In this document: positions 34,313 through 40,279 of the stretch, piece by piece
Layout: each line of letters opens with the position of its first letter
How positions within the stretch are numbered: the first letter of the stretch is position 1
Source: a virus
Strand: one strand, 5' to 3'
Virus record (IMG/VR): IMGVR_UViG_3300018083_000037
Location: 1-53,190 of that record
Length of the DNA: 53,190 nucleotides
Made by a program: the position numbers and the translations under genes
Notes under the pieces: generated by a model
The model's input: only the letters and a program-made list of their open reading frames with translations
The model's database searches: none
What the model was told of the DNA's origin: nothing

Positions 34313-36322
34313 ATGACAACTGAACTAATCAAACTTACCCTCACCAATTTTAAAGGGATCCGGCACTTCAGCTCGGAGTTTGCACATGTTGCAAATATCT
34401 GCGGCGACAATGCTACGGGTAAGACAACACTGAAGGATGCTTTCCTGTGGCTGTTCTTTGGTAAAGACAGCACAGATCGCAAAGATTTTGAGATCAAAAC
34501 CCTGGACGCTAACAATCAACCTTATCATAAACTGGATCACGAAGTGGAAGCATTGATCCGGGTGGATGATAATCTGCTCATCATCCGTAGGACCATGCGA
34601 GAGAAGTGGGTGAAGAAACGTGGCGAACAGGATGCTATTTTCTCTGGCCATGAGACCGCCTTCTTCTGGAACGATGTACCGATGAAGGAAGGAGAGTACC
34701 AGGCAAAGGTGGCCAGCGTGTTCAATGAAAACATCTTCAAGCTGATCACCAACACCGACTATTTCAATTCACTGAAGTGGCAGGACCGTCGCGGCGTGTT
34801 GATGCAAATGGCCGGCACCATTTCAAATGATGATGTTTTTAATACCATTCTTACTGCAGCCAACAAGGGAAATTTCACCGCGCTGATCAATGCACTCAAC
34901 CAAAAGAAAACGGTTGATGATTTCAAAAAGGAAATCGTTGCCAAAAAGAAAAAGATCAAAGATGAGCTGGAGCAGCTGCCGGCACGTATCGATGAAGCAA
35001 ACCGGTCCCTTCCGGAACAGATTGATTATTCTGTTATCGAGCAGTCAATACAAGCCACCAACGAAGTCCTGGAGAATGTGGAAGATCTTATTTCAAATAA
35101 GACCAAGGCTCAGAAGGAACGCCAGGAGGCTATCCTGACAAAAATCCGGGAGGTAGGAAAGTTACAGCAGCAAGCTCAGCAGATTGAATTCAGCGAACAG
35201 CAAAAGGCGAAGGAGCACAAGATCGAAAGAGAGAAAGCGATCCTTACTAAAAAATCAGAGCTACGTGCTAAGAATGATGAACGGTCGCGCTTGCTAGTTG
35301 ACTATAGCACCGAAGAAAAGCGGAAGGCCGGATTGCAGCTAATAAAAGATGAGCTGGCTAAGAAGTGGCAAGCGATCAATGCGGAGCAATTGGTGTTTAA
35401 CGAAAACGATTTCCATTGCCCGGCCTGTAAGAGAGCTTATGAAACCACCGACATCGATGCGAAAAAGGATGAGCTCACCAATAACTTCAATACTGATAAA
35501 ACACGCCGGCTTACTGATGTAACGGAACGCGGGATGAAACAAGCCGATGATATCAGGATCATTGACGCCAACATGGGCACCATTCAAAACAAAGGCGTTG
35601 TTTTAAAATCAGAAATAGATCTGTTGCAAAATAATATCGCCATCCTGGAACAGGAACACAGCCGGATGTCACAGAATGAAGAAGTGGAAGTGAAAGAGGC
35701 GATCGCTACTAATACAGAGTATTTGGCGCTGCAGGAAACGATCACGCTTCGCAATGAAGAGATCAATGCCAAACAGCCGGAAGATAACAACGCCGAGTTG
35801 ATTACTCGTAAAAAAGAGCTTCAATTAAAAATTGATGAACTGAAAAGTCAGTTGGCCGGCAAAGCGCAGCGGGAAAAGACACTGGCGCGTATCACCGAAT
35901 TAAAAGAACAGGAATCTAAGATGGCACAGGAGCTGGCCACCCTGGAAGGTGTTGAATTCAGCATCGAGCAATTCGTGAAAGCTAAAATGGATGAGCTGGA
36001 AAACCGGATCAATGGCCGATTTAAGATCGTTCGCTTCAAAATGTTTGAAGAACAAATCAACGGTGGGAGGATAGAAGCCTGCACCACCCTGATCAACGGT
36101 GTGCCATATAGTGATGCCAACACTGCCGCCAGGATCCAGGCTGGCCTTGATATCATCAACACGCTTTCGGATCATTATGAAACCTACGGTCCGGTATGGG
36201 TGGATAACCGCGAGAGTGTGATCAGGCTTCCAGAAACAAAATCCCAGCTGATCAATCTTATCGTATCGGAAAAATATAAGAAGCTGACTGTACTGCCCAG
36301 TGAAGAAATGGCAATGGCTTAA
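34313..36322 (+). CDS. SMC/SbcC-like AAA ATPase
   Basis: A 669-residue protein. N-terminal Walker A GDNATGKTT (31-39) follows a LTLTNFKGI strand typical of RecF/SbcC ATPases. Long coiled-coil arms (about 190-360 and 385-540) flank a zinc-hook-like CPAC pair (about 369-372). The C-terminal lobe (about 560-669) should carry the signature and Walker B, but I could not identify a clear Walker B. With the MBL-fold nuclease and RecT just downstream, it probably forms the phage's double-strand-break recombination module in place of a lambda-type exonuclease or gam. Confidence 0.75.
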   Translation: MTTELIKLTLTNFKGIRHFSSEFAHVANICGDNATGKTTLKDAFLWLFFGKDSTDRKDFEIKTLDANNQPYHKLDHEVEALIRVDDNLLIIRRTMREKWVKKRGEQDAIFSGHETAFFWNDVPMKEGEYQAKVASVFNENIFKLITNTDYFNSLKWQDRRGVLMQMAGTISNDDVFNTILTAANKGNFTALINALNQKKTVDDFKKEIVAKKKKIKDELEQLPARIDEANRSLPEQIDYSVIEQSIQATNEVLENVEDLISNKTKAQKERQEAILTKIREVGKLQQQAQQIEFSEQQKAKEHKIEREKAILTKKSELRAKNDERSRLLVDYSTEEKRKAGLQLIKDELAKKWQAINAEQLVFNENDFHCPACKRAYETTDIDAKKDELTNNFNTDKTRRLTDVTERGMKQADDIRIIDANMGTIQNKGVVLKSEIDLLQNNIAILEQEHSRMSQNEEVEVKEAIATNTEYLALQETITLRNEEINAKQPEDNNAELITRKKELQLKIDELKSQLAGKAQREKTLARITELKEQESKMAQELATLEGVEFSIEQFVKAKMDELENRINGRFKIVRFKMFEEQINGGRIEACTTLINGVPYSDANTAARIQAGLDIINTLSDHYETYGPVWVDNRESVIRLPETKSQLINLIVSEKYKKLTVLPSEEMAMA

Positions 36323-36355
36323 ACATTATTTATTAAAATATTCAACTAAAATAAA

Positions 36356-37213
36356 ATGACTACTCAAACTCATAATAACGGCGCCGCGACTAACCTTCCT
36401 GCAGAAAGGAAGCAGACAAAATCTGAGCTGATGCTTTCCTTCTTTGAAAAGGATACTGTAAGAACACAGCTAAAAAACGCTATGCAGGATAATGCCGATT
36501 CATTTATCGCTTCGGTAATTGATTTATACACAGGCGATGACACGCTTCAAAATTGCCACCCGGAACTAGTAGGAATGCAGGCGCTAAAAGCAGCCGTGCT
36601 GAAATTGCCAATCATAAAGGCGCTTGGCTTTGCCTATATCGTGCCCTTTAAGAAAGACGGCAAACAGATCCCACAATTCATGATCGGCTACAAAGGGCTA
36701 ATTCAGCTGGCCATCCGGACCAATCAATACAGGATCATTAATGCCGATGTGGTCTATGATGGTGAATACAGGTCTGCCAATAAGCTTACCGGTGAATTTG
36801 ATCTTACCGGCCAGAAAAAGAGCGATGCTATCATCGGCTACTTTGCTCACTTCGAAACCAAAGAAGGCTTTTCGAAAACACTCTTCATGACAAAGGAAAG
36901 GGTAACGGCCCACGCTCAGAAGTATAGCAAATCATTCAACCAGAACTATTCTCCGTGGAAGACAGAATTCGATGCGATGGCCATTAAAACCGTTCTACGT
37001 GGATTAATCAGCCATTGGGGTATCATGTCAACAGAAATGCAAACAGCTATCACCGATGATGACCGGGACGTCGCTGAAAGAACTCTCCAGGAAATAAAGA
37101 CCAATGCCAACAAAAAGGATATGTCGTTTGATGCTGTAGATGAAGCTGACCAGGTGAATGAAGATCAAAATCAAAACACAAACAACGGGCAACACGCAAC
37201 AGCTCCCTTCTAA
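36356..37213 (+). CDS. recT: RecT-family single-strand annealing protein
   Basis: A 285-residue protein matching RecT in layout and motifs. CHPELVGMQALKAAVLKLPI, then GFAYIVPFKKDGKQIPQFMIGYKG (about 81-105), TNQYRIINADVVYDG and a late WKTEFDAMAIKTVLR block are the conserved core. RecT anneals single strands at replication forks during phage recombination. The C-terminal 40 residues are acidic and disordered. It lies between the SMC-like ATPase and an MBL-fold nuclease, completing a recombination operon. Confidence 0.88.
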   Translation: MTTQTHNNGAATNLPAERKQTKSELMLSFFEKDTVRTQLKNAMQDNADSFIASVIDLYTGDDTLQNCHPELVGMQALKAAVLKLPIIKALGFAYIVPFKKDGKQIPQFMIGYKGLIQLAIRTNQYRIINADVVYDGEYRSANKLTGEFDLTGQKKSDAIIGYFAHFETKEGFSKTLFMTKERVTAHAQKYSKSFNQNYSPWKTEFDAMAIKTVLRGLISHWGIMSTEMQTAITDDDRDVAERTLQEIKTNANKKDMSFDAVDEADQVNEDQNQNTNNGQHATAPF

Positions 37214-37954
37214 ATGCAACTAACCATCATCAATAGCAATTCTTCTGGCAATGCTTACGTGCTGCATAATGAGTACGAAGCTTTGCTGATTGAGTGTGGT
37301 GTACGATTTGACCAGATCAAACAGGCACTCAACTACAACCTGAAGAAGGTGGTTGGGTGCCTTATCACACACGAGCATAAAGACCATTGTAAAGCCGTGA
37401 CGGATGTGATGGCCGCCGGCATCAATGTGTTTTCCACGTTCGGTTCGCTCAATGCTATGGGTGTTTCGATCAGTCACCGGGCCAATGCGATCACACCAGG
37501 TCAGTCTTTTCTTATTGGAGAATTCAAGATCCTTCCTTTCTCGGTGAAGCACGACTGTGCGGATCCCGTCGGCTTCCTGATCAATCATAAAGAAACAGGC
37601 AATGTACTATTCCTGACGGACAGCTACTACTGTGAGTACACATTCAAGGGACTGAACAATATTATCATTGAAGCTAACTATTGCCAAAGCATTCTGGATA
37701 AACGCCTCGAGGATGGCACAAACCCATTGTTCCTTCGGGACCGGGTGATCACCAGCCATATGAGCCTGGCGACATGCAAGGAGACGCTAAAAGCAAACAA
37801 CCTGGCAGAAGTCAACAATGTGGTGCTGATTCATCTGAGCGATGGTAACAGCGACGCGAAGCGGTTCAAACGTGAAGTTCAGGAAGCCACCGGGAAAACC
37901 GTGCATGTAGCTGAACCTGGATTAACAATTGAATTCAATAAACAACCTTTTTAA
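37214..37954 (+). CDS. MBL-fold metallohydrolase, likely DNA exonuclease
   Basis: A 246-residue metallo-beta-lactamase fold protein. SNSSGNAYVLH is the first strand and turn, THEHKDH (52-58) is the HxHxDH zinc motif, VKHDC holds the next histidine (about 115), LFLTDSYYC the metal-bridging Asp, and SHMS a later His. This resembles YycJ-type MBL nucleases, which often replace lambda-exonuclease partners of RecT in phages. The start abuts the recT stop. Direct nuclease activity is inferred. Confidence 0.75.
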   Translation: MQLTIINSNSSGNAYVLHNEYEALLIECGVRFDQIKQALNYNLKKVVGCLITHEHKDHCKAVTDVMAAGINVFSTFGSLNAMGVSISHRANAITPGQSFLIGEFKILPFSVKHDCADPVGFLINHKETGNVLFLTDSYYCEYTFKGLNNIIIEANYCQSILDKRLEDGTNPLFLRDRVITSHMSLATCKETLKANNLAEVNNVVLIHLSDGNSDAKRFKREVQEATGKTVHVAEPGLTIEFNKQPF

Positions 37955-37963
37955 AAACTAACA

Positions 37964-38428
37964 ATGGAAAATCTTCAAGTAACCAAAAGCAACGCCTTAA
38001 CGGCTTATAATAATGGCGATGTAACTATAAAGAAAGCGCTCAGTGATCTTTTTGGAAAAGAAGTCTTTACACCAAAAAACATTATGGAGCAGGTTAAAAC
38101 AGCCGATGATGCCTTTGCTATCAAAGGTATCTCGATCGGTAGCATCGTGAATGATAATGACACGACCGACGAAATAGCCTACAAGATTTTAAAAGTAATT
38201 GTTGAAGTATTAAATGAAGGCTGGGTTCCTGACTGGAAAAACTCCAACCAGTACAAATACTATCCATGGTTTGACTTGTCTTCGGGTTCCGGCCTGTCGT
38301 TCGGCGACGTTGACCCGTACTCGATTTCGACTGTCGGCTCTCGCCTTTGCTTTAAAAGTAGTGAGCTCGCCGTATATGCCGGGAAGCAATTCATAAAAGA
38401 GTACACTGATTTTTTCATCATAAAATAA
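37964..38428 (+). CDS. DGR target protein 1 (carries VR1)
   Basis: A 154-residue protein with a unique, helical N-terminus (about 1-82). The shared C-terminal domain opens with WVPDWKN, KYYPWFDLSSGS (about 98-109), passes through the variable region (VR1, about 106-130) and ends in VGSRLCFK, ELAVYAGKQF and FF. The second target has the same end. The variable residues lie between SSGS and VGSRLCFK, so the domain probably presents a binding loop. No signal peptide, membrane segment or fibre repeat is seen, so it looks cytosolic. Its stop overlaps the start of target 2 by one base. Confidence 0.8.
   Translation: MENLQVTKSNALTAYNNGDVTIKKALSDLFGKEVFTPKNIMEQVKTADDAFAIKGISIGSIVNDNDTTDEIAYKILKVIVEVLNEGWVPDWKNSNQYKYYPWFDLSSGSGLSFGDVDPYSISTVGSRLCFKSSELAVYAGKQFIKEYTDFFIIK
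38279..38351 (+). repeat. DGR variable repeat 1 (VR1)
   Basis: Aligned to the template repeat at 38850-38925 this copy shows 14 substitutions, all at template adenines (to G, T or C). Five adenines are unchanged, and there is one 3-base deletion that removes exactly the TAC codon at template positions 30-32 (counting from 38851). No template C, G or T is substituted. This is the adenine-specific pattern left by DGR mutagenic retrohoming. Confidence 0.93.
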
Positions 38429-38820
38429 TGTCCATGTCGAAAATCAAAACATTTGAAGCTGCTTGCAAGTTTCTAAAACTGGACCCGGATAAGGTTCTAC
38501 CTAAAGTTACGGGCGTGCCTAAGCATCACCAGGAAGCAATTGTAGCACATGCTAAGCTGGTGATCATTGCTGAAGCATTAAATACTGAAGCGAATGACGG
38601 CAAACCGTGGAAACCGGATTGGACTAATGGTAATTGGGATAAATACTATCCATGGTTTGACTTGTCTTCGGGTTCCTGCCTGTCGTGCGGCGACTTCGAT
38701 CTCCGGATCTCGGCTTCGTATGTCGGCTCTCGCCTTTGCTTTAAAACTGCGGAGTTGGCAAAGTATGCGGGAAAACAGTTCTTGAAATTATATGAACAAT
38801 ATTTCCTGCTGAAAAAGTAG
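38428..38820 (+). CDS. DGR target protein 2 (carries VR2)
   Basis: A 130-residue protein with an N-terminal helical domain (about 1-60) unlike that of target 1. The same C-terminal domain follows: WKPDWTN, KYYPWFDLSSGS (about 72-83), the VR2-encoded stretch, VGSRLCFK and ELAKYAGKQF. The DNA just upstream of VR2 (38641-38676) is identical base for base to the matching part of target 1 (38255-38290), longer than the template repeat covers. This suggests recent duplication or gene conversion. ATG 38428 overlaps the stop of target 1. Ligand unknown. Confidence 0.8.
   Translation: MSMSKIKTFEAACKFLKLDPDKVLPKVTGVPKHHQEAIVAHAKLVIIAEALNTEANDGKPWKPDWTNGNWDKYYPWFDLSSGSCLSCGDFDLRISASYVGSRLCFKTAELAKYAGKQFLKLYEQYFLLKK
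38665..38740 (+). repeat. DGR variable repeat 2 (VR2)
   Basis: This copy aligns to the template repeat without gaps. Sixteen of 20 template adenines are replaced (by G, T or C), four are kept, and none of the 55 other positions of the 75-base core (38666-38740) differs. Three 3'-terminal changes (template positions 60, 67 and 71) are the same as in VR1, consistent with a fixed initiation (IMH) region. Confidence 0.94.
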
Positions 38821-38849
38821 GAATGGGTGGTGTGCTGCTAGAGCGGCCT

Positions 38850-38925
38850 TCTTCAGGTTCCAGCCTGTCGTACAACGACTACGATAACCAGAACTCGAAT
38901 TCGAATGTCAGCTCTCACCTATGCT
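38850..38925 (+). repeat. DGR template repeat (TR)
   Basis: The invariant copy, rich in AAC, TAC and AAT codons when read in the VR frame (Asn/Tyr/Asp/Ser), so adenine mutation gives wide amino-acid choice without stop codons. It lies 29 bases after the target 2 stop and about 105 bases before the RT start. It falls inside a 34-codon ORF (ATG 38823 to TGA 38927) in the same reading frame as the VRs. The RNA copied from it would be the template for cDNA that overwrites VR1 and VR2. Confidence 0.93.
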
Positions 38926-38945
38926 GAATTTAAGTAGCGGCGCAG

Positions 38946-38996
38946 ACCCTGCCTCTTGGCAAAAGATAACTAATTAACAAAATTCATTGGTAGGGT
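38946..38996 (+). ncRNA. Stem-loop in the DGR RNA spacer between TR and RT
   Basis: ACCCTGCC (38946-38953) pairs with GGTAGGGT (38989-38996, one G-T pair), enclosing a 35-base loop, in the roughly 105-base spacer between TR and the RT gene. DGR RNAs of studied systems need structured sequence downstream of TR for RT priming. This stem is a candidate for that element. Boundaries of the RNA are not visible. Confidence 0.4.
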
Positions 38997-39030
38997 AACC
39001 GAAGGTGAGTTTTTAAAGCAAAGCGCCGAA

Positions 39031-39990
39031 GTGAGACGAATTAAAAATCTATATCAGGAAATCTGCAGCATGAAAAACCTGTTGCTTGCAGATGAAAAAG
39101 CCAGAAAAGGTAAAGCCTGGCAATACGGCGTTCGGATCCATGAGAAAAACAGGGATGGGAATCTACTCGTATTGCAGGACCAGTTACTCAACAAAACATA
39201 TAAAACTTCCCACTACACCACTTTCAAGGTTTATGAACCAAAGGAAAGGGAAGTATTTCGCCTTCCATATTATCCTGACAGGATCACCCATCACGCTATA
39301 ATGAATCTGATGGAACCCGTGTTTGTCTCAGTCTTTACCGCCGACACATATAGCTGTATTAAGAAGCGTGGAATTCATGCAGCCGCGTATGCCGTTAAAA
39401 AAGCTTTGCGGGACGTACCTGGCAGCCAATATTGCCTGAAACTTGACATAACGAAATTTTACCCAAATATTGATCACGATGTCTTAAAGCAGCTGTTGAG
39501 AAGGAAAATAAAGGACCAAGATCTTCTTTGGCTACTGGACGAGATCATTGATAGCGCACCCGGGCTTCCGATCGGCAACTATCTCAGCCAATACCTGGCA
39601 AATTTCTATCTCACTTATTTTGATCATTGGATAAAGGAGCAGCTGCAGGTGAAGTATTACTTCCGTTATGCTGATGACCTCGTGATATTGTCTGGTAATA
39701 AAGAAATCTTACACATGGTGTTTGACAGGATCAGTGAATACATGAGCGATCGGTTAAAGCTTCAGGTGAAATCCAACTGGCAAATATTCCCGGTTGATGC
39801 CAGGGGAATTGATTTTGTCGGATATCGGTTCTGGCATACTCATACTCTTCTCCGGAAAACAATTAAGAAAAACTTTGCCAGGATGGTCCATATGAACCGA
39901 AACGATGCGTCGATCGCTTCTTACTTGGGTTGGGCGAAACATTGCAACAGTAATCATTTAATAAAAACATTATTACATGAAGCGGTTTAA
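39031..39990 (+). CDS. DGR-type reverse transcriptase
   Basis: A 319-residue RT with a GTG start. The N-terminus (IKNLYQEICSMKNLLLADEKARKGK) matches the opening of DGR and group II-like RTs. Motifs: LDITKFYPNID (about 138-148) with the first catalytic Asp, GLPIGNYLSQ (about 178-187) with the SQ signature of DGR RTs, and YADD (213-216). There is no maturase/endonuclease domain, as expected for DGR enzymes. It copies TR RNA with adenine-specific errors. No gene resembling the Avd accessory protein is seen nearby. Confidence 0.93.
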   Translation: MRRIKNLYQEICSMKNLLLADEKARKGKAWQYGVRIHEKNRDGNLLVLQDQLLNKTYKTSHYTTFKVYEPKEREVFRLPYYPDRITHHAIMNLMEPVFVSVFTADTYSCIKKRGIHAAAYAVKKALRDVPGSQYCLKLDITKFYPNIDHDVLKQLLRRKIKDQDLLWLLDEIIDSAPGLPIGNYLSQYLANFYLTYFDHWIKEQLQVKYYFRYADDLVILSGNKEILHMVFDRISEYMSDRLKLQVKSNWQIFPVDARGIDFVGYRFWHTHTLLRKTIKKNFARMVHMNRNDASIASYLGWAKHCNSNHLIKTLLHEAV

Positions 39991-40279
39991 GGAATTGGGT
40001 ATTGCCGCACCGGCGAAAGGATTTGTTGGTGATAAAATAAAGATCGCCAGGATACTCAACAAGGAAGTAATGGTGGAGGCCTTTAAGATTGAAGCATCAA
40101 AGTTCCCGGATAAAGGATCCGGGCAGCGTCTATGCCTGCAGCTGATGGTGGATGGCGAGAAGAGGATCCTGTTTACCAGCTCCGGTTTTATGATGGAGAT
40201 GATAAAGAAAGTGCCGGCGGAACATTTCCCGTTCTTAACAACCATCTGTGAGATTAATGAGCATTACGAGTTTTCTTAA
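39977..40279 (+). CDS. Small alpha/beta protein following the RT
   Basis: A 100-residue protein overlapping the RT gene by 14 bases. It contains KGFVGDKIKIARILNKEVMVEAFKIEAS, QRLCLQLMVDGEKRILFTSSGFMMEMI and an acidic end. The beta-strand pattern is compatible with an OB-like nucleic-acid-binding fold of the kind encoded in Bacteroidota-phage replication modules. It is not clearly an Avd homologue, which would be a helical bundle. It may simply be a replication protein next to the DGR. Confidence 0.5.
   Translation: MKRFKELGIAAPAKGFVGDKIKIARILNKEVMVEAFKIEASKFPDKGSGQRLCLQLMVDGEKRILFTSSGFMMEMIKKVPAEHFPFLTTICEINEHYEFS

Follow-up and report, generated by a model that had tools for sequence, protein, structure and literature searches.

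A complete diversity-generating retroelement with two small tandem paralogous targets in the early region of a phage genome

Organization of the locus

The window, by which we mean the whole stretch of DNA that was analysed, is a linear IMG/VR virus contig of 53,190 bases that encodes an integrase, a DnaB-type helicase, a ParB-like protein, RecT, an SbcC-like protein and a terminase; the host of this phage is probably a member of the Bacteroidota. A diversity-generating retroelement (DGR) cassette occupies positions 37964–40279, with every part on the + strand: two target genes (T1 and T2), the template (TR), a spacer matching the Rfam RNA RT-17, the reverse transcriptase (RT) gene and a gene for a 100-aa protein (Table 1). 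The start codon of T2 overlaps the stop codon of T1, and the pair sits between the RecT/hydrolase module and ParB, in the DNA-replication region. At a score below threshold, the metallo-hydrolase gene found just upstream of T1 (37214–37954) matched Apyc1, an anti-Pycsar protein (E = 0.0019, 18 bits; curated cut-off 50).

Table 1. Features of the DGR cassette and of its upstream neighbourhood (positions in the window)
Feature	Position	Strand	Evidence or remark
Early/recombination module before T1: SbcC-like ATPase, RecT, metallo-hydrolase	34313..37954	+	Outside the DGR proper
Target gene T1, 154 aa, phrog_11581 family	37964..38428	+	ORF; phrog_11581 E 2.1e-28; AF2 pLDDT 84.9
VR1, 73 nt, inside T1; T1 stop ~25 codons further on	38279..38351	+	14/14 substitutions at template A, one 3-nt gap
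Target gene T2, 130 aa, paralogue of T1	38428..38820	+	phrog_11581 E 9e-24; AF2 pLDDT 83.6
VR2, 76 nt, inside T2	38665..38740	+	16/16 substitutions at template A
TR; mutable core ~38856-38909; fixed marks 38855, 38910, 38917, 38921	38850..38925	+	TR-VR comparison
TR-RT spacer RNA, Rfam RT-17 (RF03020), conserved stems	38945..39022	+	42.8 bits, gathering 40.4; covariation
RT of the DGR, GTG start, 319 aa	39031..39990	+	PF00078 E 1.5e-17; phrog_1423 E 1.2e-125; PDB 8ub7 E 1.1e-51
phrog_19665 protein of 100 aa, a candidate accessory protein; overlaps the RT 3' end	39977..40279	+	Conserved position behind RT

Differences between the template and its variable copies

A preliminary description of this DNA, made from the sequence by eye, had placed TR and the two variable copies (VR1 and VR2) correctly and had claimed that all their differences lie at template adenines. 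Computed alignment bore this out for both copies. The 16 differences between VR2 and TR all fall on the 20 adenines of the 76-nt template (P = 4.5e-13 under random placement). The same holds for the 14 substitutions in VR1, given one 3-nt (one codon) gap at about template positions 38878–38882 that the earlier description does not mention. VR1 is therefore one codon shorter than TR, i.e. there is an in-frame 3-nt deletion inside its mutable core. A search of the whole window found no further VR elsewhere in the 53-kb record. Approximately 3e9 amino acid variants are reachable per VR, and none of them contains a stop codon.

Template adenines were found to be of two classes among 139 VR–TR pairs of relatives (these counts were made with an A-biased filter, and the adenine rule was re-tested filter-free on 237 pairs, see below): core adenines change to all bases, whereas edge adenines face a nearly constant base in the VR. 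At the edge positions 38855, 38910, 38917 and 38921 the VR base is almost always G, G, G and T, respectively. The same four differences are identical in VR1 and VR2 and are practically fixed family-wide. Two of the four are synonymous (TCA/TCG and CTA/CTT) and their fixity is therefore not explained by selection on the protein. The edge marks look like permanent TR/VR marks situated outside the transferred tract, not like products of mutagenesis; by analogy with the BPP-1 model, those at 38910, 38917 and 38921 resemble an IMH/IMH* pair, in what is likely the IMH* region. When the four marks are set aside, all the differences in the 54-nt core are still at adenines (12/12 for VR2, P = 5.3e-9; 10/10 for VR1, P = 2.4e-7), and at many of the core adenines the two VRs carry different bases.

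The 237 VR–TR pairs were chosen by target homology and overall similarity, blind to which base differs. Template adenines account for 3,049 of their 3,205 mismatches (95.1%), against an A content of 31%; substitutions at other template bases at similar rates, which the preliminary description had named as the pattern that would speak against its reading, were not seen in these pairs. VR1 and VR2 are preceded by the same 36 nt, and gene conversion extending beyond TR was considered for this reason; it was not supported, synonymous-site identity in this stretch being about as high between loci as within them.

The reverse transcriptase, the spacer RNA and the gene behind the RT

The element had been described as a complete DGR, and TR, VR1, VR2 and RT are indeed all present; the DGR reading is supported by RT homology, by the specificity for template adenines and by the conserved spacer RNA. 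The VRs lie in protein-coding targets and TR lies outside them; moreover, TR is identical in near-identical relatives whose VRs differ. The RT possesses the motifs LPIGNYLSQ and YADD noted earlier, and the homology check for its type returned as best solved match 8ub7 (E = 1e-51; next match, 2e-18), which we take to be the RT of the BPP-1 DGR. Relatives were gathered by searching a genome collection with the RT as query. Among named phage records, crAss-like phages have the nearest RTs (49–58% identity). In the RT tree, the 112 RTs of small-target loci form one clade (support 0.93) with zero tail-target RTs inside, and this clade is placed among RTs serving a single target protein of ~430–480 aa. 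By its RT the element belongs to the crAss/LoVE-type group; it is complete, and the DGR machinery itself is ordinary.

The spacer between TR and RT matches RT-17 above the gathering threshold. Its stems show covariation among 39 relatives: changes on both sides were observed at 10 of the 12 pairs, 94.8% of the pair cells hold standard pairs (39–54% when slid), and both-side changes occur in 108 cells, against 31 on shuffling. Because the RT-17 matches found in the analysis always lie between a TR and a DGR RT, the RT-17 motif can be read as a component of DGRs.

A phrog_19665 protein of ~100 aa is encoded directly behind the RT in 93 loci. Its profile matched in 129 of the 136 non-tail-type loci and in 13 of the 30 tail-type loci, where the match is farther from the RT. 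Pfam, NCBIfam and PDB searches with the 100-aa protein gave no structure or family that would explain it. It is a candidate accessory protein of the DGRs of this RT group.

The target proteins

The least ordinary feature of the element is its targets, which are small, paired and encoded in the early region. T1 and T2 are clear paralogues (profile comparison, E = 2.4e-53). Their AF2 models are mostly helical, with the VR as a low-confidence loop; in that of T1 a helical N-terminal part is followed by the variable hairpin and then by two C-terminal helices. Profile comparison with tail-protein targets gave a match confined to the 30–31 columns of the variable hairpin (E = 1.6e-7 and 2.2e-7). T1 and T2 are predicted to consist of a mostly helical scaffold bearing a variable hairpin of 30 residues that also occurs in the tail-fibre targets of DGRs. 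They do not have the character of tail-fibre-type targets, being small, located in recombination/early modules and similar to tail proteins at the hairpin only. No hydrophobic 19-residue segment above KD 1.2 was detected in either protein. Judging from gene position, size and the lack of a signal or membrane segment, they are most likely non-virion proteins.

Sequence searches of T1 and T2 against Pfam, NCBIfam and PDB returned nothing usable. In PDB, Foldseek and VIA-align searches with the models yielded no useful match; in the viral library they yielded uncharacterised relatives only. The scaffold could be a reduced C-type lectin or a different fold. Neither target, nor the 100-aa protein next to the RT, gave a hit to an effector, NTPase or toxin domain in domain and family searches. 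A tblastn search of named phages with T1 of the window gave no match, homologues there being reached only via relatives.

The target pair in relatives

The tandem target pair recurs in >100 Bacteroidota prophages and phages, and according to the HMM 114 of the 121 loci contain at least two members of the phrog_11581 family. The genomes concerned bear the names Chitinophagaceae, Flavobacteriia, Sphingobacteria, Ignavibacteria and others, and many of the relatives reside in bacterial genomes; Mu-like relatives have genes for a transposase and a transposition protein upstream of the cassette. In the target tree, upstream and downstream copies fall into separate groups (55/57 vs 2/58, support 0.97), which argues that the pair is old and that the gene order has been kept. 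In one genome, that of Sphingobacterium griseoflavum (L138:8928-9788), T1 and T2 are naturally fused into one 286-aa protein with two VRs, which suggests that the two work together. Extra family members with A-biased VRs were observed in L120 (at about RT −4967) and L108 (at about RT −3532), several kb from TR; these are remote targets of the same DGR.

The preliminary description had also concluded that the element has been active in recent history. This part stands for relatives with the same cassette. Loci L051 and L057 show 11 VR differences, all opposite TR adenines, with 0 differences at 1,649 flanking sites and at 116 other VR sites and with identical TRs; L020 and L088 show 21 VR differences opposite TR adenines and 0 at 1,636 flanking sites. 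Between such near-identical prophages, then, all change is found in the VRs and opposite adenines of the template, so that the relatives are active. The argument does not extend to the four edge differences of the window, which are fixed in the family and therefore provide no evidence of recent mutagenesis.

Homologues of T1 and T2 are also found in two named phages. In LoVEphage, the remote VR (PMC12629997) lies in a phrog_11581 protein (QVQ57199.1) that is encoded ~15 kb from the RT, close to DNA methyltransferase and other metabolic genes; it has 19 differences from the TR of the tail-fibre DGR, all at adenines. In Bacteroides phage Versailles, the phrog_11581 homologue is preceded by SbcC-like, recombination and hydrolase genes in an order resembling that of the window, and an 80-nt stretch shows 11 differences from TR, again all at adenines. 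In both phages the tail-fibre DGR has the homologue as a second, remote target.

Proposed function of the target pair

In the mechanism that we propose, TR would be transcribed together with the RT-17 spacer, the RT would copy the TR RNA with errors at adenines, and the cDNA would replace the core of VR1 or VR2; the components are those described above and the chemistry is borrowed from BPP-1. T1 and T2, each diversified independently, would then associate as a pair of binding faces and act inside the infected or lysogenic cell, not on the virion, and their partner would be a fast-changing protein, for example one of a host defence or of a competing phage. We estimate at roughly 75% the probability that the locus is a complete crAss/LoVE-group DGR whose non-tail tandem paralogue targets are paired intracellular binders of a fast-changing partner. 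The role of T1 and T2 is perhaps counter-defence or superinfection control, which in our judgement is favoured over adsorption by the early-gene position and by the location of the LoVEphage homologue near DNA methyltransferases. The broader proposition that a phage DGR of wide occurrence has given up receptor binding on the virion in favour of an intracellular two-part binder, in which each of the associating paralogues has a hypermutable face of its own on a non-C-type-lectin scaffold and which is directed against host defence or competing phages, is offered tentatively and may well prove incorrect.

Other explanations must be weighed against this one. T1 and T2 could be minor virion proteins (tail or capsid decorations), and the DGR would then act on receptor binding, as it does in BPP-1 and in crAss-like phages. 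The homology of the variable hairpin to tail-fibre DGR hairpins would fit, as would the fact that tail fibres are the usual targets of phage DGRs, according to a survey (PMC8144416), and the annotation of the Versailles homologue as 'tail protein', although the latter perhaps merely reflects the hairpin. However, the profile match to tail targets ends at the hairpin, the genes lie in recombination/early modules and do not adjoin structural genes, and both LoVEphage and Versailles retain a separate tail-protein target beside the RT, so that we consider a virion location improbable. It is even harder to see the DGR as a relic, with old VR differences and a cassette out of use in the phage studied. 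Activity is not datable in a single record and four differences are family-wide fixed marks, but the reading frames of RT, T1 and T2 are open, VR1 and VR2 have diverged from each other in the core, and close relatives display A-only turnover between identical flanks; this explanation is very unlikely.

A narrower version of the intracellular explanation is that T1 and T2 serve the lysogen: the prophage would express them as diversified proteins that sense other phages or exclude them. The presence of many relatives in bacterial genomes points in this direction, and cytoplasmic two-target DGRs, proposed antigen sensors, exist in multicellular bacteria (PMC10907252). Against it, the neighbouring genes are early lytic or replication genes and no effector, NTPase or toxin domain turned up when T1, T2 and the 100-aa protein were searched; we regard this version as rather unlikely.

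Phage DGRs have so far been read mostly as receptor-changing tools. If paired intracellular binding by T1 and T2 is true, a large, mostly unannotated clade diversifies paired early-region proteins, and directed hypermutation is also used by phages inside the cell. A testable link would then connect the distal second VRs of gut prophages with the orphan family phrog_11581, the likewise orphan RT-17 RNA and the possible accessory protein phrog_19665.

Comparison with known systems

Bordetella phage BPP-1 has Avd, and its tail protein Mtd carries a C-terminal VR. The present DGR shares with that of BPP-1 the RT sequence relationship (PDB 8ub7) and the A-specific TR–VR differences. It differs in that ~22–25 codons follow the VR. 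An Avd was not found, but the PF05635 search that matched nothing in the window had a control that likewise matched nowhere.

The use of one TR for two targets is shared with the tentaclins (PMC10743442), the Bacuni phages (PMC8143477), Thiohalocapsa PB-PSB1 (PMC10907252) and the multiple-VR DGRs (PMC3521204, PMC6642488), and paralogous targets have already been described among them. Their targets belong to the C-lectin, Ig-like, fimbrial-tip-like or STAND/AAA proteins, and the small paired family is not described in the passages covered by the analysis. Distal second VRs near counter-defence genes have been reported in four gut prophage species (PMC12629997); as far as the literature covered goes, their link to the phrog_11581 family and to tandem cassettes is new. 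Large automatic surveys such as PMC8144416, with 36,611 targets, most of them unannotated, may hold phrog_11581-type targets without describing them, and the family may already be an unnamed cluster of Roux 2021. The mechanism is that of a known, ordinary DGR; the novelty of the element lies in the kind of target, in the occurrence of the targets as a pair and in their location within the phage genome.

The DGRs of crAss-like phages (for example crAssphage LMMB, PMC7290462; cr52_1 and relatives) have the closest RTs among named phages and the same order target–TR–RT, but they possess a single large tail-protein target beside the RT, in contrast to the two small early-region proteins found here. 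LoVEphage encodes its RT together with the tail fibre and has a distant small target; in the window, two small targets adjoin TR and RT, and no tail target was found. The RT match in LoVEphage (MW660583.1, 48183-48768; L178 and L179) is split across two open frames, and the RT may be frameshifted or interrupted there. In cr60_1 (NC_055891.1, 60995-61558; L177), the RT match contains four in-frame TAG codons, as expected if this crAss-like phage has TAG reassigned.
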